Source: Sandaracinus amylolyticus
GTDB taxonomy: Bacteria; Myxococcota_A; Polyangia; Polyangiales; Sandaracinaceae
Length of the DNA: 64,000 nucleotides
Assembly (NCBI RefSeq): GCF_000737325.1
Contig: NZ_CP011125.1
Span: 2,232,001-2,296,000 of the forward strand
Reading direction: 5' to 3'
How positions within the stretch are numbered: the first letter of the stretch is position 1; every line of letters starts with the position of its first letter. Of this stretch, positions 4,683 to 28,318 are shown piece after piece. Position numbers and translations under genes: made by a program. Under the pieces are notes generated by a model. That model was not told where the DNA came from. It searched no databases and saw nothing but the letters and a program-made list of their open reading frames with translations.

Positions 4683-5190
4683 GGTACCGTCGCGCGCGAT
4701 GGTGCGTCGTGACGCAGACGAAGGTCGAGCCGTAGGGCCGACGTCTGCGCGCTGCGCTTCTCCTGCGGGTGAGAGTCCCGCCTCGGTAGGCACCGGAGCG
4801 CCGAGTAGCAGGCCCCGGGCGTCGGGAGAGATCCCGTCGTCCCGAGCGGGGCGTCGAAAGCCCGTCAGGCAGCGAGAGCTGTGCAGCGGGGAGCAAGATT
4901 GCGGGCCGCAACATGAAGTGAAGCCTGCAGCCTCGTCAGATGAACAATCCGAGAGCCGAGCCGCTCATTTCACGGCGAAGGCCACGCTCGAAGCGTCTGT
5001 TCCGGAGCGCGCATCGAGTCTCGGCGGGGTATGGGGCGCAGCACGCGATCACGGAGAAGCGCGGAACACGAGAGGCCCGTCTGCGCAGCCCTCGTCGGGG
5101 CGAAGCGCGCCGTATAAGCCGAAGGCGAAATCGGCCGCCGCGCAGCGGGAGTCCGAGGGGATCGTAGTACCGCACGGCATCGCGTCGGCG

Positions 5191-6642
5191 ATGTCGACGA
5201 ACGTCGTGCAGAACAACGCGACGGGAGGGAAGGGTCCCTGGGGCAGTCACGTCGAGGAAGCAGGTAAGCGCGAGGGAATGGCCGGCAGGACCGGACCTAA
5301 CGACCCCGTCGGCCGTAGGCCGCGCGAAGAAGTGCGACAACTGCAGAGGCGACTGTGGGTCGCGGCCAAGCGAGCACCTGGGAGACGTTTTCACGCTCTT
5401 CATGACCACATCTGGAGGAGTGACGTCCTTCGGGAAGCGTGGAAGCGAGTCGAGGCGAACAAGGGCGCGGCGGGCGTCGATGGCCAGACGATCGCCGAGG
5501 TGAAGCAGTACGGAGTCGAGCGCTTCCTCGAAGAGCTCGGCGACGCACTGCGGAGCAAGACGTACCGGCCCGAGGTGGTGCTGCGCCGGTACATCCCGAA
5601 GGCAGATGGAAGGAAGCGGCCGCTCGGGATTCCGACGGTCCGGGATCGAGTGGTCCAGATGGCGGCGAAGCTGGTGCTGGAGCCGATCTTCGAGGCGGAC
5701 TTTCTTCCGTGCTCGTGGGGCTTCCGGCCGAAGCGGGGCGCGCTGGGTGCGCTGGAGACGCTGAGGAAGCTCGGCGCGAAAGGGCATCATCACGTGCTCG
5801 ACGCCGACATCCGCGACTACTTCGGGAGCATCGATCACGACAAGCTGATGAAGCTCGTCGCTCGACGCATCTCGGATCGGCGGATGCTCAAGCTGGTGCG
5901 GCAGTGGCTCGAAGCGGGCGTGATGGACGGGGGCGTCGTGACTCGCAACATCGCGGGAACGCCGCAGGGCGGAGTCATCTCTCCGCTGCTCTCGAACATC
6001 TACCTGCACGTGCTCGACGTGACGTGGATGCGTAAGAGCGCCCCGCTCGGGACGCTGGTGCGCTACGCGGACGACTTCGTCGTGATGTGCACGACGAAGC
6101 GCGAGTGCGAAGAGGCAGAGAGGCGCATTCGAGTCATCCTCGGGCGCCTCGGTCTCGAGCTGCATCCGGACAAGACGAGGCGAGTCGAGCTCTACGATGG
6201 CAAGCAGGGCTTCGATTTTCTCGGACATCACCTGCACAAACGCATGAGCGGAGCGCTGTGGGAGAAGAAAGGCAGACGCCTCTATTTCCTGCATCGCTGG
6301 CCGTCCGCGCGCGCGATGAAGCGGGTGAGACAGCGCGTGAAGGAGCTGACCCCGAGGAGGCGGTGCCACGCGGATGTTCGCGAGGTGATCGCCGATCTCA
6401 ACCCCGTGCTGCGGGGCTGGGGCAACTACTTCCGCACCGGAAATGCCGCCAAGAAATTCAACCAACTCGACAGCTACGTCTGGCGTCGGCTGCGGGACCT
6501 GCGCGTGGAGCGCAAGGGCCGGCATCTGAAGCCGGGGGAGTCGAGCAGGTGGACGCGCGAGTACTTCTGGAGCCTCGGACTTCATCGCCTGCGAGGGACC
6601 GTGCAGTACCCCGAGCGAGCCTTCTTCCGGGAGGTCGCGTAA
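5191..6642 (+). CDS. ltrA: Group II intron reverse transcriptase/maturase (no endonuclease domain)
   Basis: The intron-encoded protein supports splicing and target-primed reverse transcription. RT motifs in order: PLGIPTVRDRVVQMA (RT2/3), PCSWGFRP, DADIRDYFGSIDHD with the first catalytic Asp, AGTPQGGVISPLLSNIYL (about 255-270), and YADD at about 292. The maturase/thumb domain follows (GFDFLGHHLHKR, VLRGWGNYFRTGNAAKKF), ending with LHRLRGTV. No HNH Cys pairs follow, so the endonuclease is absent. The frame is open back to 4699, but that part is intron RNA. I used ATG 5191; ATG 5278, giving MAGRTGPN, is an equally likely start. The frame is intact, so the element looks functional. Confidence 0.92.
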   Translation: MSTNVVQNNATGGKGPWGSHVEEAGKREGMAGRTGPNDPVGRRPREEVRQLQRRLWVAAKRAPGRRFHALHDHIWRSDVLREAWKRVEANKGAAGVDGQTIAEVKQYGVERFLEELGDALRSKTYRPEVVLRRYIPKADGRKRPLGIPTVRDRVVQMAAKLVLEPIFEADFLPCSWGFRPKRGALGALETLRKLGAKGHHHVLDADIRDYFGSIDHDKLMKLVARRISDRRMLKLVRQWLEAGVMDGGVVTRNIAGTPQGGVISPLLSNIYLHVLDVTWMRKSAPLGTLVRYADDFVVMCTTKRECEEAERRIRVILGRLGLELHPDKTRRVELYDGKQGFDFLGHHLHKRMSGALWEKKGRRLYFLHRWPSARAMKRVRQRVKELTPRRRCHADVREVIADLNPVLRGWGNYFRTGNAAKKFNQLDSYVWRRLRDLRVERKGRHLKPGESSRWTREYFWSLGLHRLRGTVQYPERAFFREVA

Positions 6643-6667
6643 TGCAGCGACTCGAGAGACTGCCCGT

Positions 6668-6754
6668 AAGCCGTGTGCGGGAAATCCGCACGCACGGTTT
6701 GAACGGGGGTCTTGACCAACCGCCGGCGCAGGCCGGTAGCAGGTAAGGATCTAC
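6668..6754 (+). ncRNA. Group II intron domains V and VI
   Basis: Domain V (6668-6700): an 8-bp lower stem containing the AGC catalytic triad (6669-6671), a two-base CG bulge (6691-6692), a 5-bp upper stem and a GAAA-type loop. Every lower-stem pair forms, with one G-T wobble. Domain VI: 6708-6717 pairs with 6742-6751, interrupted only opposite G6714, leaving the A6745/A6746 bulge expected for the branch point, 8 nt from the 3' splice site. The pairing was done by hand. Confidence 0.88.
6744..6749 (+). promoter_or_regulatory. Shine-Dalgarno-like site supplied by the intron 3' end
   Basis: TAAGGA lies 7 nt before the dehydratase ATG (6757) and is part of the 3' strand of intron domain VI. It exists next to the start codon only in unspliced RNA. 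After splicing, the nearest purine-rich sequence is GAGG at 4681-4684, about 19 nt from the ATG, which is too far for good initiation. Confidence 0.5.
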
Positions 6755-18127: not shown

Positions 18128-18847
18128 TCACGTCGCGCGCGGGCCGAACACCTCGACGTCGACGCCCGGGCTCCAGTGCAGGATCTCGGGCGCGCGCTGC
18201 AGCGCGGGGAGGCCGGCCGCCGCGGTGAGCGTCTGCTCGAGCCGCAGCACGCGCGCCCGATGTGCGGGGTAGGGCGCATGGTGCACCTGCCCCTCGAGGA
18301 TCCGCCCGCGGTGCGCGGCGAAGAGCAGGTAGCGCTCGAGCAGGAAGTGCTCGAACGTGCCCGGCGCCGACGCGCCGAGCGCATCGCCGATCTCGTAGTC
18401 GACGTCGAACCGCGCATCGTGCCCACGCCGCGACGACGCGTACAGCACGCGCGCGCCGTCGCGCTCGGTGCGCATGCGCGCGTGCCAGTAGGGCAGCGAC
18501 CATCCGACGCGCGCCGCGCGCACCGCGAGCCACGAGCTCGCCTCGAGCGAGAAGAACCACACGCCGGGGCGGCCGCGGTGGTGCACGTACGTGCGCAGGT
18601 TCAGCTCGAGGAAGTCGAGCGCCAGCGCGCCGGGCAGCCACGAAGGGCGGATCTGCTCCATGCGGAACGGCACCGCGCCGATCCACGCGCGGCCCTCCCA
18701 CGCGTCGAGCTCGAGCGCCGCCGGCACGAGCGCGCGCACCTCGTCGAGCGAGACGCTCCAGTGCACGAAGAGCAGCTCGCGCCACCGCTGCGTGCCGGCG
18801 TTCGCGCCCTCGGGTCGTCGCGTCGGCGCGATGCGATCGAGCGTCAT
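18128..18847 (-). CDS. DUF2071 (YqjF-like) family protein
   Basis: 239 residues. LLFVHWSVSLDEVRALVPAALELDAWEGRAWIGAVPFRM is the characteristic start of DUF2071/YqjF proteins, followed by FLELNLRTYV and GVWFFSLEASSWLAV. The fold is related to acetoacetate decarboxylase; biological role unknown. I used ATG 18847, where the motif sits at the expected distance; the open frame upstream overlaps the neighbouring gene. Its start is 7 bp after the stop of the PARG-like gene, so the two are probably co-transcribed from the palindrome-flanked promoter. Confidence 0.82.
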   Translation of the reverse strand: MTLDRIAPTRRPEGANAGTQRWRELLFVHWSVSLDEVRALVPAALELDAWEGRAWIGAVPFRMEQIRPSWLPGALALDFLELNLRTYVHHRGRPGVWFFSLEASSWLAVRAARVGWSLPYWHARMRTERDGARVLYASSRRGHDARFDVDYEIGDALGASAPGTFEHFLLERYLLFAAHRGRILEGQVHHAPYPAHRARVLRLEQTLTAAAGLPALQRAPEILHWSPGVDVEVFGPRAT

Positions 18848-18854
18848 CGCGCCA

Positions 18855-19670
18855 TCATGCGCGATCGAAGCGCGCTGCGAACGCGCGGAACGTCGCGCCC
18901 TCCTCCGACGTGTCGAGCACGCTGAAGCGCACGACGTCGAACACGCCGGCGTGGCTGCCCTCGAGCGCCGACGCGAAGAGCCCCGCGACCTCGATCGGAT
19001 CGTTGCGGAACACACCGCACCCGAACGCGCCGAGCACCAGCGCGCGATGCTCGTGCGCAGCCGCGACGTCGAGGATGCGCGCGATGCGCTCCGCCATGAC
19101 CGGCGCGGTGTCCTCGTCGGGATCGAGCTCGCGGCGGTTCGGCGCCGCCGCGACGAGGAACGAGCAGGGCCACGGCGCCTCGAGCAGCGTGCCCGCGTCG
19201 TCGCGTAGCACCGGCACGTCGGGCGCGTGGATCACGTGGTGCGAGTACGACGGATCACGCCGCGCGCGGTGGTGCTGGTAGAACGGCGAGCCCTCCTCGC
19301 ACGCGTAGAGCGCGGACGCGCGCGCGAGGCTCTCTTCCTGCGCCTCCGAGCCGCCGAGGAACCCGCCGCCAGGGTTGCGCGCGGAGCCGAACACGAGCGC
19401 GGCGACGCGTCGTCCCTCGTCGTGCAGGCGTCGTGCGCCGGCGAGCGTGGTCTCGTTCGCGACGGTGATGATCGTGGGGCGCGCGCTCGGGATCGCGCGC
19501 GGCGGTGGGCGCTCGGGCGTGTGCAGCGTGGTGCCCGCGATCGCGTCGCCGATCGCGCGCTCGACGTCGACCTCGCGCCCGCTCGGCGCGACGTAGCGAC
19601 CGGCGCGGAGGATCGCGACGGTCTCCTCCGCGATCTCCTGGCGGCGCTTGCGGTTGAGCTTGTTGGTCAT
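18855..19670 (-). CDS. Bacterial poly(ADP-ribose) glycohydrolase-like macrodomain protein (TIGR02452/DUF2263)
   Basis: 271 residues. NPGGGFLGGSEAQEESLARAS carries the GGG-X-QEE catalytic signature of PARG-type macrodomains, with the paired Glu that hydrolyses O-glycosidic ADP-ribose linkages. VLGAFGCGVFRNDP is the second conserved ADP-ribose-binding loop of the family. The N-terminal RKRRQEIAEETVAIL helix is typical of TIGR02452 proteins. The ATG at 19670 begins 2 bp from twin palindromes; the frame is open through them, so GTG/ATG starts inside (for example 19682) are possible. Role: removal of ADP-ribose from a protein or metabolite; the cognate transferase is not in the window. Confidence 0.87.
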   Translation of the reverse strand: MTNKLNRKRRQEIAEETVAILRAGRYVAPSGREVDVERAIGDAIAGTTLHTPERPPPRAIPSARPTIITVANETTLAGARRLHDEGRRVAALVFGSARNPGGGFLGGSEAQEESLARASALYACEEGSPFYQHHRARRDPSYSHHVIHAPDVPVLRDDAGTLLEAPWPCSFLVAAAPNRRELDPDEDTAPVMAERIARILDVAAAHEHRALVLGAFGCGVFRNDPIEVAGLFASALEGSHAGVFDVVRFSVLDTSEEGATFRAFAARFDRA

Positions 19671-20554: not shown

Positions 20555-21067
20555 TCAGAGCCGCGTGATCGCGGCGAGCAGCGCGCCGACGTCGTCGCTC
20601 GCGTGCACGACGAGCTCGGGCGCGCTCGGCGCCTCGTACGCGACGCCGACGCCGGGCATCGTGCTCGACTGCGCGGCGTGGGCGCGCGCGTAGAAGCCCT
20701 TGTCGTCGCGAGCCTCGGCGGTCGCGAGCGGCACGTCGACGTGAACCTCGACGAAGCGCGGCGCGAGCGCGCGCGCACGATCGCGGAACGCGCGGCGGTG
20801 CGCCGTCGCGGGCACGAGCACGACGAGCCCTTGTGACGCGGCGAGCGCTGCCAGCCGCGCGAGCGTCTCGTAGAAGGCGTCGCGCGCGTCGTCGTCGTAG
20901 CCGGGCCGCGGGCGCAGCGCTTCGCGCACGTCGTCGCCGTCGAGCACGAGCGTCGCGACGTTCGTGCTGCGCAGTCGCTCCGCGGCGCGTCGCGCGAGCG
21001 TCGACTTGCCCGACGAGGGAAGCCCGGTGAGCCACACGACGACGCCGCTCGATGCAGTGTCGCTCAC
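20555..21067 (-). CDS. APS-kinase-like P-loop kinase (CysC-like)
   Basis: 170 residues from a GTG that overlaps the upstream gene stop by 4 bases. Walker A is GLPSSGKS (15-22), followed by LDGDDVREALRP, and RDDKGFYARAH corresponds to the RDxKGLYxxA of adenylylsulfate kinases; YEAPSAPELVV matches the C-terminal substrate region. However, the FISPYRxDR and FTGIDxPYE motifs of true CysC are changed (PATAHRRAFRDRAR; PGVGVAYEAP), so the substrate may not be adenylyl sulfate. No sulfate-assimilation genes are nearby. It is the last gene of a compact operon with an APH-fold kinase, a MoxR ATPase and a giant VWA protein. Confidence 0.75.
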   Translation of the reverse strand: MSDTASSGVVVWLTGLPSSGKSTLARRAAERLRSTNVATLVLDGDDVREALRPRPGYDDDARDAFYETLARLAALAASQGLVVLVPATAHRRAFRDRARALAPRFVEVHVDVPLATAEARDDKGFYARAHAAQSSTMPGVGVAYEAPSAPELVVHASDDVGALLAAITRL

Positions 21068-22164
21068 GTCATCGCCTCGATGCCGATCGCGGGATCGAAG
21101 CGCGGCGCAGCGAGGACGCGCTCGACGAAGCGCAGCAGGCGATCGCGATCCTCGCCGCGCAGGTGCGGGTACCAGCGCGGGCTCGACACGACGAGCGCGC
21201 GCCACGCGAAGAACGGCGCGATCGCCTCGAGCACGCCGTCGTCGCCGCTCGCGCGCAGATAGCGATCGAACGTGCGCGACCACAACGCGCCGAGCCCGTC
21301 CTTCCACACGTCGCGGTGCTCGAGCCCGAAGAAGAGATGGTTGATCGTGAGCGACGCGAGATCGTCGGCGGGGTCGCCCTGCGCGCCGCGGCTCGCGTCG
21401 AGCGCCGTGAGCGCCTCGCCATCGAAGAGCAGGTTGAACGGGTGGAAGTCGCCGTGGGTGCGTCGCAGTCGATCGGTGCGACGGCGCAGGCGCAGGCGAT
21501 GCTCGAGGCACGCGCGCTCGATCGCGTCGAGCCGCGCGCGCGGCGCGCCCGGCGTGTCGTCGGGGTACGCGTCGACGATCCCCGCGATGCCCTCGCCCGC
21601 GCCGACGAGGTCGCGGATCGCGCGCACGTACGCGCCCTCGTGGGTGCCCGGCGTGCGGTGCAGCGCGACGAGGTAGCGGACGAGCGCGTCGGCGCGCGCG
21701 ACGTCGAGCTCGCGCACGATGCCGTCGCGCGCGATGCGGCGGAGATCGTCGGCGTAGAGCTCGCCCTCGGCCCACTCGGTGATCAGGTACGCCTCGCCGG
21801 TCGCGCGCAGCGACACGAGCGTCCCGTCGTCGCGCAGCGCGCCCACGTCGATCGCGCGCACGTGCTGCGGGAAGAGCCCGAACGTGTCGTACGCGAGGAC
21901 CTGTGCGGCGACACGATCCGCGCGGCGATCGTGGCCGTACTCGTCGCTGCCCGCGGTGTGGAGCACCACGTCGCGCGTCGTCCCGCTCTCGGTCGCGAGC
22001 GTGACGCGCAGCGGATGTCCGTACCCGAGCTCCTTCTCCGTCTCGTCGCTCGGCGGATGCGCATCGGGCCCGAGCGCGCACGCCCGCACGACGCGCGCGC
22101 CCGGGAACAGCGACGCGAGATGCGCGCGCAGTCCGGCGGGCAGCTTGTCCGATCGATCCGGCAC
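21064..22164 (-). CDS. Aminoglycoside-phosphotransferase-fold kinase
   Basis: 366 residues. The catalytic loop THGDFHPFNLLF (His about 237) has the HGDxxxxN Brenner motif, and ALDASRG supplies the metal-binding Asp; YLITEWAEGE is the hinge. It belongs to the APH/choline-kinase superfamily, which phosphorylates small molecules; an antibiotic-resistance role cannot be assumed. It overlaps the APS-kinase-like gene by 4 bases and starts 26 bp after the MoxR stop. APH-fold proteins fused or paired with P-loop kinases occur in many bacteria, suggesting sequential action on one substrate. Confidence 0.8.
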   Translation of the reverse strand: MPDRSDKLPAGLRAHLASLFPGARVVRACALGPDAHPPSDETEKELGYGHPLRVTLATESGTTRDVVLHTAGSDEYGHDRRADRVAAQVLAYDTFGLFPQHVRAIDVGALRDDGTLVSLRATGEAYLITEWAEGELYADDLRRIARDGIVRELDVARADALVRYLVALHRTPGTHEGAYVRAIRDLVGAGEGIAGIVDAYPDDTPGAPRARLDAIERACLEHRLRLRRRTDRLRRTHGDFHPFNLLFDGEALTALDASRGAQGDPADDLASLTINHLFFGLEHRDVWKDGLGALWSRTFDRYLRASGDDGVLEAIAPFFAWRALVVSSPRWYPHLRGEDRDRLLRFVERVLAAPRFDPAIGIEAMT

Positions 22165-22190
22165 CCCGGCGATCTAGACGCGCGCCCCGA

Positions 22191-23312
22191 TCACGCCACC
22201 GGCTCTCCGCGCTCGCGCAGCACGCGCGTCACGGTCGCCCAGACCGCGCCCGCGTCGCTGCCGGGATCGTCCCAGCGGCCCGAGAAGCGCCCGCAGAAGC
22301 TCGACTTGAGCACCTCGGGCAGGTTCGCGCGCGGCTCCTCGCTCATCAGCGGATGCTCGAGGTACACGCACGCTTCGTCGGTCGCGCGCACCGAGAGGCT
22401 CTGTCCGAGCTCGGGCGCGTGGCGCACCGCATCGGCGATCGCGACGAGCGTCTCGACCAGCTCCTTGCCGAGCGAGGGATGGCGCGCGCGCAGCAGCTTC
22501 ACCTCTTCGGGCGGCGGCGGATAACGCATCTGCAGCGGCGCGAAGCGATCGAGCTGCGCGGCGTCGATCCCGAACGTGCCGGAGAACTCGCGACCGCGGT
22601 TCACCGCGGCGACGAACTGCACGTGATCGGGGATCTTCACGAAGCGGTTCTCGACCGGATGGAACACGCGGCGCGTCGCGTCGAGCGCGGGCATCAGCGC
22701 GTTGCGCGCGCTCTCGGGGCAGCGATTGAGCTCGTCGAGGAAGACGAGCCAGCGCTTGTCCTTCGACTCGTTGGCCTGCTCGATGGCGAGGAGCACGTCG
22801 GTCTTCACGAAGTCGGTGACCGGCGCGCCCGACGCGCTCGCGCGCACCTGGATGGTCGCGAGGAAATCGCTCGCCTCGACCACTGCGCCGCAGTTGAAGA
22901 AGACGAACTCCATGCCGAGCGACTCCGCGATCGCGCGCGCGAGCGTCGTCTTGCCGCAGCCCTGCGGACCGTCGAGCAGGATGTTGAGCCCGCTCTCGAG
23001 CAGGATCTGCAGCTTCTTCGCGACCGACGGATCGATCCACACGCCCTCGATGCGGAACGGCGCGGGGCGCTCCCACTTCGCCTCGATGAAGCCGTGGTCG
23101 GCGCGCTCCGGCTTGTGGATCGCCTCGATGCGCACGAGGCACGGCACGCCGGGCTGGATGCGCACGTCGTCGCTGAGCACGACCTTCGGCGCGCGTCGCC
23201 CGTCGAGGTGCGTCGCGCGGTACTTGAAGCGCGAGTCCTCGACGGGGTTCGCCCAGAACGTCGCCTCCATCACCGCGCCCACGCGGATCTCGTCGATCTC
23301 CAGCTTCGTCAT
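22191..23312 (-). CDS. MoxR-type AAA+ ATPase with a distinct N-terminal domain
   Basis: 373 residues. The AAA+ core has Walker A GPQGCGKT (115-122), Walker B LVFLDELNR (Asp193, Glu194), sensor-1 VAAVNRG and the C-terminal lid. Before it lies a strand-rich domain of about 80 residues (IDEIRVGAVMEATFW...HGFIEAKWE) not usual in MoxR proteins; I do not recognise it. MoxR ATPases act with VWA proteins as chaperones that remodel or activate client proteins, and the VWA partner is encoded directly upstream with a 2-bp gap. ATG 23312 was chosen because the longer frame runs into the giant gene. Confidence 0.88.
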   Translation of the reverse strand: MTKLEIDEIRVGAVMEATFWANPVEDSRFKYRATHLDGRRAPKVVLSDDVRIQPGVPCLVRIEAIHKPERADHGFIEAKWERPAPFRIEGVWIDPSVAKKLQILLESGLNILLDGPQGCGKTTLARAIAESLGMEFVFFNCGAVVEASDFLATIQVRASASGAPVTDFVKTDVLLAIEQANESKDKRWLVFLDELNRCPESARNALMPALDATRRVFHPVENRFVKIPDHVQFVAAVNRGREFSGTFGIDAAQLDRFAPLQMRYPPPPEEVKLLRARHPSLGKELVETLVAIADAVRHAPELGQSLSVRATDEACVYLEHPLMSEEPRANLPEVLKSSFCGRFSGRWDDPGSDAGAVWATVTRVLRERGEPVA

Positions 23313-23314
23313 GA

Positions 23315-26300
23315 TCAACCCCTCATCACCTGGCGCACCAGCTTCGTGATCACCTCGCCGAAGCGCGCGACCGCTCCGTCGAGCTCGCCGCCTTCGATCA
23401 CCACGTAGTGCGGGAAGCACACTTCCTCGAGCGGTCGCACCGCGACCTGCGCGCACGCGATGCCGCGACGCGTGGTGCGGCGCACGCACGTGCGAAGCGC
23501 GTCGACCGAGCACTCGGTCGGGAGCCCGTCGCTGATCATCACGATCAGCTTCGCGCGGCGGGTCGAGCGCGCGGCGACGTGCGCCACGTGGTCGAGCGCG
23601 GCCGCGTCGTTGTTCCCGTCGGTCGCGCGCAGCGACGTGATCGCGCTGCGGCGCGCATCGCCCGCGTCGTAGATGCAGCGGTCGGTGAACCCGAACGCAC
23701 GCAGATCGACGCCGCGCAGATCGCGCGCCGCTTCCGCGAGCAGCACGCCGAACGCGTGGGCGCGCTCCATCGAGGTGCCCTGCATCGAGCCCGAGCAGTC
23801 GATCAGCACGCCGAGGAACAGATCGGTGCGGTGGCGCAGCTCGCGCGCGATCAGCACGCGCGGATCGCCGCGGGTCACGAGCGCGCGCAGGCGCGCGACG
23901 TCGAGGCGACGTCCTTGGAGGCGCATCCGCTGCGGCTCCCAGCGCAGGCCGAGCTCTTCGAGGTGACGGCGCATGCGATCGGCGTGGCGACGCACCGTGC
24001 TCGCGACCTGCTCGTGCTTGCCGGGATCGGGCGCGAGCACCTCGACGCGCGTGATCGGCGCCCAGTCCTGGCTCGCGCCGACGTTGATCGCGAGCGGCTG
24101 GTCGCGCCCGGCGGGCGGTGCGCCGGGCGTGCTGCGAGGCGCCTCGAGCACGCGCTGCACCTCGCGCTGCACCTCGCCGTCGGTGATGCCCTCGTCGCAG
24201 TCGACGAGCTCGCCCGGGCGCGACACCGACTCCGCGCCGCCGAAGCCGAGCGCGACGTCGATCTCCTGTCCGAAGATGCGATGCAGCGCCTGCGCGATCT
24301 CCCAGAGCCGCGGCACGTCGGCGTGGCGGAACTTGCGATCGAACAGCGCGAGCGCCTCGCGCACCTTGGGGTCGCCTGAGCGATCACCGAGGCCCATGCG
24401 CAGCGCGCGCACGAAGCGCGCGAACGAGTGACCACGCGCCTCGAGCGCACCGAGCACCGCGCCGCTCTCCACCGTGATCGCGGCGCGATCGCGCGCGACG
24501 CCGAGCTTCGTCGCGCTCAGCACGTCGAACGCGTGCGCGCCGAGGATCGAGAGCAGGAGATCGAGCTTCACGTCGTTGCGCGAGTGCCGGAAGGCCCACG
24601 CCGCGAGCGTCTTCAGGCGATCGCCCCACTCCGCCTCCATCGCGCGCAGGTTGCGCTCGAGGTGCTCGTCCATGACGAGGTTGAGCAGGCGCACGAGGCC
24701 CATCTCGTCGGCCTTCTCCCAGATCGCGATCGCCTCGTCGGAGCCGTGGAACACGTGATGCCCGATCTCGTGCAGCACGAGGGCCTCCACGATCGTCCGC
24801 CCGTCGCGCTCGCGCTGGAAGATCGGCAGCGGCGTCACGTGGACGTCACCCGAGCGCATCGTCGTGTAGCCGAGCTGCGAGACGTCGCTGATGTGGAAGC
24901 GCAGGACGCGCCCGGTGAGCTCGCGCGCGCGGCGCGTGCCCCACGCGAACACGTCGGCGACCTCGCGCAGCTTCGCGTCGCGGGCGCGCGCCGGCGCCAT
25001 CAGCAAGCGCGCACGACGCCGCGCGACCTCGTAGATGCCGTCCTCCAGCACGCGGCGGAGCGCGGACTCTCGAGCGCTCGGTCGCGTGCGCAACCGTTCG
25101 AGCAGATCGACGATCCGCGGCTCGAGCACGTGCTCGTGCCCGACGGTGAGGCCGCCCTCCGCGAGCGCCATCACCATGCCCTCGCTGATGCGCCGGATCA
25201 GGTCGATCGGGAGCGGCTGCTCGGCGCGCAGCGCGCTCTGGAGGAGGAGCGGCGCGCCGAGGCGATCCTCTTCCGCGATCAGCCACTGCGCGACCTCTCT
25301 GCGCAGCGCCGCGTGACGCTCGGGCCCCGCGATCAGGAACGCGCGCAGGCCCTCGAGGCAGCGCTCTCGCTCCGCGGGCCGCCAGACGTGCGTGCGCAGC
25401 GTGCGGACCGCGCGCGTGTACGCGTGCGGATGCGGCGACCGCGCGAGCGTGCAGGCGACGACGACGAGCGGGCGCAGCGCCTCGAGCCGCTCGACGTCGC
25501 TCTCGCGCATCCACCCGATCGGCGGCGTGGGATCGCACGCCGCCTCGAGCGCGACGTCGGCGAGGTCGGTGCGACCCAGCCGCGCCAGCGACACCGCGAG
25601 CCGGAACCGCAGCTCCGCGTCGGCGCCCGCGCCGCGACGCGCGCGCACCATCGCCTCGATCACGTCGAGCGCCGGCTGCGACTCGAAGAAGTCCACCGCG
25701 CCCGCGAGCGCGCTCGCGCAGGGCACACCGGGCTCGCGCTCGAGCAGCTGCGCGATCCGTCGCTCGCCCGCGGCCGCGCCGCGCAGGAGCAGCGCGAGCG
25801 CGGCCTCCTGAACGAGCGGCTCGATCGTGCCCTCGCACTCGCGGGCGAGCGCATCGAGATCGGCGAGGCTCTTGATGCGGTCGATCGCATCGAGCTCGTC
25901 CGACGTGATGCGCGCGCGCGGAGGTCGCCGCGCCGGCGCGAGCCCGCGCGCGCTCGCGATCGGGGCGAGCCGCTCGCGCGTGCGCTCCGGCAGATCGGGG
26001 AGCCGCGCGACGATCGCGGGCGTGCGCTCCGCGAGCAGCGTCGGCGCGACCACGCCGCACGACACGAGCAGGCGCGCCGCCATGTCGCCGAGATCGGTGT
26101 CGAGCTCGGCGAGCGCGAGATCGAAGAGCGCGGGCGTCGCGAGCTCTTCGAGGCGCGCGCGATCGCGCCACCGCCACATCTCCGCGACGGTCGCGACGCC
26201 CGCCCAGATCTGTTGCGCGAGGATCGGCGCCGGGAGCGATCGCGCCGCCGCGAGCGCGCCGAGCGCACCGTCGCTCCCCGCGGCGAGCCGCTCGATCAGC

Positions 26301-28318
26301 GCGAACGCGTGCGCCTCGAAGAGGTGCAGCCACGCGTTCGCGAGCACCGGGAGCACGTCCTGACGACCGCGCCAGCGGCGCACCATCTCGGCGTCGAGCT
26401 CGGTGCGGAACGCAGCGGTCGGCGCGGACCAGCGCGCCAGCTCGCGTGCGACCGCGACGGGATCGTCGTGCGAGGCGAGCAGCGCCGCGCACACCACGGG
26501 CGACACGATCGGTCGGCGCGCCGCGAGCACCGCGACGAGCCCACGCCGCGGCGCGGTCAGCGCGGGCCGCAGCGCGTCGAGCAGATCGCCCGCCGTGGTC
26601 GCGCCCGCGATGCGCGCGACCTGGTGCTCGTCGAGCGTCGTCACCGTGAGCGACGTGGGATCTTCGAGCGCAGGGCGGGGCACGCGGCTCGTCGCCCAGC
26701 CGCGGAGCGCGGGGTGCTCGTGCTCGGCGAGCGCGTGCGCGAGCGCCAGCTCCTTCGCGAACGGGAGGCTCGTGACGTGGCCGAGCAGCGTCACCAGCGC
26801 GACGAGCCGCTCGAGATCGAGCGAGCGCGCGGCGTCCACCCACGCGTCGGCGCCGACGCGGCGCGCGACGTCGCCGAGGAGATCGAGCAGGAGCGGCGAG
26901 CCCTTCGCGTCGTCGTGATCGACGAGCGCGATCATCAGCGCGCGAAGCGCCTCGGGCACGGCGGCGATGCACGCTCCGAGCACCTCGACGGAGCGACCGA
27001 TCTTCGCCGAGGTCAGGCGCGCCTCCTCGGACGCGCGGAGCACGTCGAGCGCGAGCGCGACGTCGATCGCGAGCGCTGCGTCGACCCCGGCGGGAAGCGC
27101 GACGTCGTCGGTCGGGGTCGCGGTGATCGCGAGGGCGACGAGGAGCGCGCGCCGATCCGGCATCGCGCTCAGCAGCGCCGGCAGGAGCGAGGGAGCGCGC
27201 GCGATCAGCGGCGCCGCGCGGTGCGCATCGGCCCGGAACGCCTCGATGATCTCGCGCTCGCCGAGGCGCGCGATCACCGTCGCGGCATCGACGCCGCGGG
27301 CGACCGTGAAGACCGCGGCGAGCGCTCGCAGGTCGAGCGTGCCCTCCGGCGTGCGCACGAGATCGCCGCCGAGCAGCGCGTCGACGGTCTCCGCCGCGAG
27401 CGCGGGCACTGCATCACCGCACTGCAGCGGGCCCTCGAGAGCGTCGACGCGCACCGCGCGCGACAGGCGAACGTCGGCGAGCGCGGCGGGATACACCGCG
27501 CCGAGCAGCGCGCACGCAGGCGCGGGCAGCTCGCCGCGCCGACGCAGCAGCGCATAGAGCGCAGCCGCCGCGCGACGATGTGTGTCGGGGCGCCCGAGCA
27601 GGAGCGCGCGCACCGTGCGCAGCACGCTCGCGCAGCGCGAGGGCTCGACGTCGGGCGCGAGGAAGAGCTCGATCATCTCTTCGAGCGTGTCGTCGAGCGC
27701 GACGCCGGGATCGTCGCCGTCGAGGATCGGATCGATCTCCGCCGGCGTGCGGTACCGGATCACGAGCAGCTCGTTCAGGAGCTGCACGCCGAGGTTCGAC
27801 TCGATCCACGCCCGCGCGCGCTCGGCGCTCATCACGCCGGTCCGGACGTGCGCGAGGATCGGTCCGATCGCGCGCGGCTGCGCCGGCAGTGTGACGCGAT
27901 CGGCGCACGCCGGATCGGGCAGCAGGTGCAGCGCGAGCGACTCACAGCCGAGCGGCGCCGTGCCCTCGACCGCAGCGCGACGCACCGCGGGATCGCGATG
28001 GAAGATCGCGAGCGCCCATGCGGCGGGCAGCCCCGCGCTCGACGCGCGCAGCGACTCGACGGCCGCGATGCGCACCTCCTGGTCACGATCGTCGAGCGAC
28101 TCGGAGATGCGCAGGAGCCCGACGCGCCCGCGCGCGCCGGCGAGCGCGCGCACCGCCGCGACACGCACGTCGACGTCGTCGTGCGAGAGCGCGGGCGCGA
28201 GCGCGCCGAGCCAGGGCGCACGCTCTGGGATCGGCAGGGACGCGAGCGTGCGCAGCGCCGGCAGATCGTCGCGATCGACCGAGCGCGTGAGCAGGCGTTG
28301 GAAGAGGAGGACGGGCAC
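23315..28318 (-). CDS. Giant HEAT-like / zincin-like / VWA-domain protein
   Basis: About 1667 residues. The N-terminal two thirds is Leu/Ala-rich helical repeat sequence in HEAT style (VDVRVAAVRALAGARG, RDQEVRIAAVESLRAS, DPAVRRAAVEG). Around residue 1183 LHEIGHHVFH gives a zincin HExxH with a possible further ligand in NLVMDEHLERNL. The C-terminus is a VWA domain with MIDAS DCSGSM at about 1507 and IVMISDGLPTE. No signal peptide, so cytoplasmic. GTG 28318 starts the recognisable sequence but lacks a Shine-Dalgarno; GTG 28388 has GGGGGA before it and is an alternative. It heads the operon with MoxR; the VWA normally couples to the ATPase, and the repeats probably hold the client. Confidence 0.82.
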   Translation of the reverse strand: MPVLLFQRLLTRSVDRDDLPALRTLASLPIPERAPWLGALAPALSHDDVDVRVAAVRALAGARGRVGLLRISESLDDRDQEVRIAAVESLRASSAGLPAAWALAIFHRDPAVRRAAVEGTAPLGCESLALHLLPDPACADRVTLPAQPRAIGPILAHVRTGVMSAERARAWIESNLGVQLLNELLVIRYRTPAEIDPILDGDDPGVALDDTLEEMIELFLAPDVEPSRCASVLRTVRALLLGRPDTHRRAAAALYALLRRRGELPAPACALLGAVYPAALADVRLSRAVRVDALEGPLQCGDAVPALAAETVDALLGGDLVRTPEGTLDLRALAAVFTVARGVDAATVIARLGEREIIEAFRADAHRAAPLIARAPSLLPALLSAMPDRRALLVALAITATPTDDVALPAGVDAALAIDVALALDVLRASEEARLTSAKIGRSVEVLGACIAAVPEALRALMIALVDHDDAKGSPLLLDLLGDVARRVGADAWVDAARSLDLERLVALVTLLGHVTSLPFAKELALAHALAEHEHPALRGWATSRVPRPALEDPTSLTVTTLDEHQVARIAGATTAGDLLDALRPALTAPRRGLVAVLAARRPIVSPVVCAALLASHDDPVAVARELARWSAPTAAFRTELDAEMVRRWRGRQDVLPVLANAWLHLFEAHAFALIERLAAGSDGALGALAAARSLPAPILAQQIWAGVATVAEMWRWRDRARLEELATPALFDLALAELDTDLGDMAARLLVSCGVVAPTLLAERTPAIVARLPDLPERTRERLAPIASARGLAPARRPPRARITSDELDAIDRIKSLADLDALARECEGTIEPLVQEAALALLLRGAAAGERRIAQLLEREPGVPCASALAGAVDFFESQPALDVIEAMVRARRGAGADAELRFRLAVSLARLGRTDLADVALEAACDPTPPIGWMRESDVERLEALRPLVVVACTLARSPHPHAYTRAVRTLRTHVWRPAERERCLEGLRAFLIAGPERHAALRREVAQWLIAEEDRLGAPLLLQSALRAEQPLPIDLIRRISEGMVMALAEGGLTVGHEHVLEPRIVDLLERLRTRPSARESALRRVLEDGIYEVARRRARLLMAPARARDAKLREVADVFAWGTRRARELTGRVLRFHISDVSQLGYTTMRSGDVHVTPLPIFQRERDGRTIVEALVLHEIGHHVFHGSDEAIAIWEKADEMGLVRLLNLVMDEHLERNLRAMEAEWGDRLKTLAAWAFRHSRNDVKLDLLLSILGAHAFDVLSATKLGVARDRAAITVESGAVLGALEARGHSFARFVRALRMGLGDRSGDPKVREALALFDRKFRHADVPRLWEIAQALHRIFGQEIDVALGFGGAESVSRPGELVDCDEGITDGEVQREVQRVLEAPRSTPGAPPAGRDQPLAINVGASQDWAPITRVEVLAPDPGKHEQVASTVRRHADRMRRHLEELGLRWEPQRMRLQGRRLDVARLRALVTRGDPRVLIARELRHRTDLFLGVLIDCSGSMQGTSMERAHAFGVLLAEAARDLRGVDLRAFGFTDRCIYDAGDARRSAITSLRATDGNNDAAALDHVAHVAARSTRRAKLIVMISDGLPTECSVDALRTCVRRTTRRGIACAQVAVRPLEEVCFPHYVVIEGGELDGAVARFGEVITKLVRQVMRG

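Follow-up and report, generated by a model that had tools for sequence, protein, structure and literature searches.

Two gene modules side by side in Sandaracinus amylolyticus: a giant HEAT-zincin-VWA protein conserved with a MoxR ATPase, and a separate pair of kinase-like genes

Do four closely packed genes on one strand make up one functional system? The question is raised by a cluster in the window (the whole 64,000-nucleotide stretch of DNA analysed here), which encodes a giant protein, a MoxR-type ATPase and two kinase-like proteins. The giant and MoxR genes are called module 1, and the two kinase-like genes module 2:

23315..28318, minus strand: giant with a HEAT-like solenoid, a zincin-like and a VWA domain, 1667 aa (module 1)
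22191..23312, minus strand: MoxR-type AAA+ ATPase, 373 aa, AAA_5 at 57.8 bits (module 1)
21064..22164, minus strand: APH-fold phosphotransferase-like protein, 366 aa, PF01636 at 36.1 bits (module 2)
20555..21067, minus strand: APS-kinase-like P-loop kinase, 170 aa, PF01583 at 123.4 bits (module 2)

The cluster and its surroundings

The giant and MoxR genes are separated by 2 bp and the MoxR and APH-like genes by 26 bp, while the APS-kinase-like (APSK-like) gene starts within the stop of the APH-like gene, a 4-bp overlap (GTGA). An independent gene caller that uses codon usage reproduces the coordinates of the giant, MoxR and APH-like genes, and puts the APSK-like start 30 bp further in. The strand, spacings and domains are as a first-pass annotation of this DNA had read them. 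Scans of the cluster for terminators and promoters, which say little at this G+C, find nothing between the genes, and because no terminator is found there, co-transcription of the four genes in the window genome (a single contig of 10,327,335 bp) stays possible.

Several other features of the window are recorded here in their own right. Just downstream of the cluster, a microbial PARG catalytic domain (18855-19670, minus strand; PF10021, 8.6e-44) adjoins a DUF2071 protein (18128-18847, minus strand). ARAGORN calls a tRNA-Ala(cgc) at 18817-18912 on the minus strand, where it overlaps the DUF2071 gene at its start, and this call is probably a false positive. Further away lies a group II intron (4763-6725, plus strand), with Rfam matches to RF02003 at 4763-4916 and to RF00029 at 6666-6725; the open reading frame between the two matches (5500-6642) is probably its reverse transcriptase/maturase.

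The two proteins of module 2 pass the Pfam cut-offs of PF01583 (APSK-like) and PF01636 (APH-like), and they are probably small-molecule kinases. The more specific models are not reached: the APSK-like protein scores 126.3 against a cut-off of 138.7 for the NCBIfam apsK equivalog (TIGR00455), and the APH-like protein, at 12.7 against a cut-off of 205, is far under the APH(3') model. A relative of the APH-like protein is found in 39 of the 192 genomes of the class that were searched, the 38 others being at 45-62% identity. Of 20 loci checked, 19 have the APSK-like gene next to the APH-like one, as do all 12 of the larger regions. This pair (L140-L159, L189-L200) is a conserved unit of the class, for which no described function is found.

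Is module 2 then coupled to module 1, as the first-pass annotation had proposed? Six of the 39 genomes with the APH-like gene are among the 31 genomes with module 1, which is about what chance would give, and most of the 39 lack the giant and MoxR. The five other genomes that contain both modules (G033, G043, G179, G186 and G197) have the APH-like gene on a different contig from the MoxR and giant genes. All four genes stand in a row only in the window genome and in a congener (L039; 97, 90, 93 and 86% protein identity), so the gene order does not extend beyond close relatives, and module 2 is never found beside module 1 in the genera examined outside this one. That the four genes work as one system, with the kinases acting together with the giant and MoxR, would suit their tight spacing on a single strand and the order shared with the congener. 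Nevertheless, either pair is conserved in the absence of its neighbour here and the modules are apart in the other genera examined, and we therefore reject the four-gene coupling, which we regard as highly improbable. Of the two observations that the first-pass annotation had named as able to overturn the coupling, the kinases are indeed unlinked from MoxR and the VWA protein outside the genus, while the scans give no terminator between the genes. The cluster consists of two modules of two genes each, which are conserved independently and joined only in this genus, and it illustrates how an operon that looks plausible can arise from modules brought together by chance or by recent history.

The giant and MoxR as a conserved pair

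We turn to module 1. The genome samples are partial and many of them are fragmented metagenome bins, and the counts that follow are to be read with this in mind. Among 289 genomes of the class, both genes are found in 30, MoxR without the giant in one, the giant without MoxR in none, and neither in 258 (Fisher p 5.8e-40, a statistic that ignores shared ancestry). The lone genome with MoxR only (G183) is 72% complete and its match is partial. Thus all 30 genomes of the class with a giant carry the MoxR, whose relatives in the class are at 66-97% identity, and the association of these two proteins that the first-pass annotation had pointed out holds as a conserved pair.

Of the 46 named loci, 27 have MoxR immediately after the giant on the same strand, and four have one or two genes in between. 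Where the two genes are apart, the partner is still present: all seven genomes whose MoxR stands apart carry the giant at another place, and MoxR is elsewhere in all ten cases of a giant without an adjoining MoxR. We considered whether the orphan MoxR loci count against the pairing and rejected this, as the same genomes carry the giant elsewhere. In one metagenome-assembled genome (L124) the giant and MoxR form a single frame of 2167 codons, where a sequencing error that removes the stop is possible.

Genomes labelled Sandaracinaceae, Nannocystaceae, Kofleriaceae and Polyangiaceae (Minicystis rosea and Plesiocystis pacifica, for example) carry the pair, as do other classes of this phylum and Planctomycetota. 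The MoxR tree places the Planctomycetota sequences among some from Myxococcota in a ten-member group that has support, most inner forks being unresolved. A related MoxR is also encoded in the genomes of three of the divergent giants (1149-1838 aa). The exceptions are VWA-type matches only, in genomes without a MoxR of this family (G381, G610 and the genome of L138); the L138 protein is from Chloroflexi and has a long SESGEQ-type repeat ahead of a related VWA. The giant and MoxR are a real, conserved pair across many families and two phyla, beyond chance. As a separate observation, one Myxococcota genome has two giants flanking a single MoxR gene (L130 and L172), an arrangement that suggests one ATPase serving both; its second giant is without the third histidine of HExxHxxxH.

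Would such a pair serve in a conflict with invaders, as the MoxR-vWA systems of Kaur et al. 2020 are described to do? It has the MoxR and the VWA, and it is patchy in myxobacteria and planctomycetes, lineages that are favoured by such systems (PMC7159879). We nonetheless consider this quite unlikely. The loci examined around the giant and MoxR contain no third gene, no variable effector and no conserved neighbour that would point to a client; the zincin and the MIDAS are both kept, not swapped; and PADLOC gives no match for the giant and weak generic AAA matches only for MoxR. The giant is accordingly not assigned to a known defence system. In addition, no relative is found in plasmids at 1e-30 and none in viral contigs, a result on which a mobile origin of module 1 was also rejected.

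Architecture of the giant and of its ATPase

The domains of the two module 1 proteins are as follows, in the order in which they are translated:

25139..28318, minus strand: N-terminal HEAT-like alpha-solenoid of the giant, aa 1-1060, helical throughout in the AlphaFold2 model
24449..24991, minus strand: zincin-like domain, about aa 1110-1290, with approximate limits
24758..24772, minus strand: HExxH site, aa 1183-1187, invariant in aligned giants
23822..23950, minus strand: stretch ahead of the VWA, about aa 1457-1499, with GRRLD and RGDPR motifs, at the position of the NorD finger
23318..23821, minus strand: VWA domain, to the C terminus, with the MIDAS motifs DCSGSM (aa 1507), GNND (aa 1568) and SDG (aa 1596)
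23028..23312, minus strand: N-terminal extension of MoxR, about 95 aa ahead of the AAA domain, highly conserved

The giant is modelled with AlphaFold2 using an alignment of relatives fetched from the named genomes. Residues 1-1060 (mean pLDDT 90.5) and 1030-1667 (mean pLDDT 84) support the order HEAT, zincin-like, VWA, in agreement with what the first-pass annotation had read from the sequence. The best Foldseek matches of the solenoid model are the HEAT proteins CAND1, mTOR and the karyopherins, with full-length superpositions that are loose, as is usual for solenoids; on the whole giant, HEAT is marginally under its Pfam cut-off (PF13646, 27.6 bits against 27.7). The solenoid is the fastest-evolving part, with a mean column identity of 27% against 54% for the zincin-VWA part and 75% for MoxR, and because of this it is probably the specificity arm. 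Such a gradient, from MoxR through zincin-VWA to the solenoid, is in keeping with a motor that stays constant and a client arm that diverges. One giant (L052) appeared in BLAST to be without its C-terminal half; this was rejected, since a profile search recovers the protein at full length.

The assignment of the next domain as zincin-like is made on a motif, the model layout and a profile match. The motif is HEIGHHVFH, beginning at aa 1183, and its HExxH is kept by all 37 aligned giants as well as by three divergent ones. In the model, three strands are followed by the helix bearing HExxH and then by a helix with a second conserved motif, N-x3-DEHLER, the D of which is aa 1217; D1217 or E1218 is our guess for the third metal ligand. 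Against the DUF2201 zincin, hhalign gives a probability of 87% (P 3.9e-6). A fold search with the model of aa 1030-1667 returns essentially VWA matches, and the zincin-like domain is without a fold match there.

The VWA on the whole giant is below the Pfam cut-off (PF00092, 18.7 against 23.8), and the C-terminal fragment alone is above those of VWA_CoxE (29.2 against 26.4) and CobT_C (21.4 against 21). All aligned giants with a complete VWA keep DCSGSM, GNND and SDG. The best structural match of the domain is the MIDAS of Rea1/Mdn1 (Z 21.8, 194 residues, 2.2 A), the NorD fold matches with Z 17.6 over 230 residues at 5.0 A, and the sequence profile matches CobT chains at 9.4e-6 and 2.3e-5. Both of these fold matches, Rea1/Mdn1 and NorD, are VWAs that partner AAA+ rings. 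VIA-align pairs residues 385-633 of the C-terminal model with NorD 352-638. Since this span includes the NorD finger that enters the NorQ pore (residues 403-448; PMC13036017), we place its counterpart in the giant at about aa 1457-1499, a segment conserved in sequence and low in pLDDT.

The MoxR protein matches AAA_5 well above the cut-off (57.8 bits against 22), and it has a Walker A at aa 115 (GPQGCGKT) and a Walker B at about aa 190 (LVFLDEL). Its N-terminal extension is without a Pfam match. The top PDB profile match is midasin (2.3e-19), and NorQ is lower in the list.

A possible mechanism

How would the giant and MoxR act together? Seen directly are the strict pairing of the two genes, the order of the domains, and the conservation of MIDAS and HExxH. 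In NorQD, the finger contacts the ATPase in its pore, the VWA is rotated by ATP hydrolysis, and specificity lies with the variable N-terminal region (PMC13036017, PMC9976466). By analogy, MoxR may form a hexamer that holds the pre-VWA segment and the giant's C terminus in the way that NorQ holds NorD, and ATP hydrolysis would turn the VWA relative to a client that the HEAT solenoid is presumed to hold. The remodelled client would then be brought to the zincin, where it would most likely be cut, for maturation or removal. Our favoured reading of the locus, of two unrelated modules side by side with module 1 as a NorQD-like MoxR/VWA remodelling machine that has a zincin built in, is one in which we place evenly balanced confidence.

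The HExxH site, and that site only, suggests proteolysis by the zincin-like domain. We tentatively put forward, as an idea with a modest chance of being right, that the pair constitutes a new kind of proteolytic machine powered by ATP: the MoxR ring would turn a VWA rotor and, with no threading of the substrate, the client held by the HEAT arm would be presented to the built-in zincin. If true, a rotor-driven protease of this kind would differ in architecture from Clp, Lon, FtsH and the proteasome.

The main rival to proteolysis is metal insertion as by NorQD and CobT, in which MoxR and the VWA would open a target enzyme and HExxH would carry a metal for delivery instead of cutting. The NorD (Z 17.6) and CobT matches of the VWA favour it, and NorQD does insert iron (PMC13036017). 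On the other hand, an HExxH on a helix that follows a strand layer is typical of peptidases, and no conserved metalloenzyme gene is near the loci examined. We regard metal insertion as conceivable and somewhat doubtful.

MoxR/VWA machines are widespread, with known clients for few only. The pair described here is together in nearly every genome examined, even with its genes separated, and it combines a conserved peptidase-like site with a huge scaffold. It offers a clean setting in which to ask if proteolysis can be powered by MoxR rings.

Comparison with known systems

Module 2 resembles APS kinases and APH phosphotransferases in its folds, and differs in that the pair is its own conserved unit. 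For module 1, we find the architecture not described in open-access papers on MoxR with zincin or HEAT, or on DUF2201 with MoxR.

The MoxR-vWA systems with VMAP, iSTAND, FtsH or beta-propeller components share the MoxR and vWA core, and HEAT repeats or a metallopeptidase are occasionally among the effector domains of the ternary conflict systems (PMC7159879). However, effectors are not swapped here, and the VMAP ternary systems have the order VMAP, MoxR, vWA with a conserved third protein, whereas here the giant is followed by MoxR and the loci examined have no third gene. The MoxR also does not reach the cut-off of bpMoxR (PF20030, 15.3 bits against 27).

For the VWA by fold, and for the ATPase by PDB profile, the best match is midasin (Rea1/Mdn1). 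It carries its AAA modules and MIDAS on a single polypeptide and works on ribosome precursors, while the ring subunit here is a separate gene.

DUF2201 proteins (PF13203) likewise have a zincin and then a VWA in one protein, with a MoxR-like gene adjoining, and the zincin profiles align. They differ in being about 400 aa, without a solenoid, and in having MoxR first in gene order, and the PF13203 model has no match in the window giant or in 14 members scanned. This shorter, uncharacterised zincin-VWA-MoxR pair is also present in the window genome (L186:2190-4741, C1 about 320190-322741), where a DUF2201-type protein of about 400 aa overlaps a MoxR-like gene as a compact version of the plan.

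With NorQ/NorD and CbbQ/CbbO, module 1 shares a MoxR AAA+ ATPase paired with a protein that bears a C-terminal MIDAS VWA. The fold match to NorD takes in the stretch ahead of the VWA where NorD has its finger, and a variable N-terminal region is common to both (PMC9976466). NorD, of about 640 aa, consists of an N-terminal domain of about 225 aa, a linker and the VWA (PMC9976466); the giant, of 1667 aa with a 1060-aa HEAT solenoid and a zincin-like domain ahead of its VWA, is not NorD by architecture, and its MoxR, unlike NorQ and CbbQ, has the 95-aa N-terminal extension. Judged by sequence and predicted structure, the giant and MoxR look like an undescribed variant of the MoxR/VWA remodelling pairs of the RavA-ViaA, NorQD and CbbQO class.
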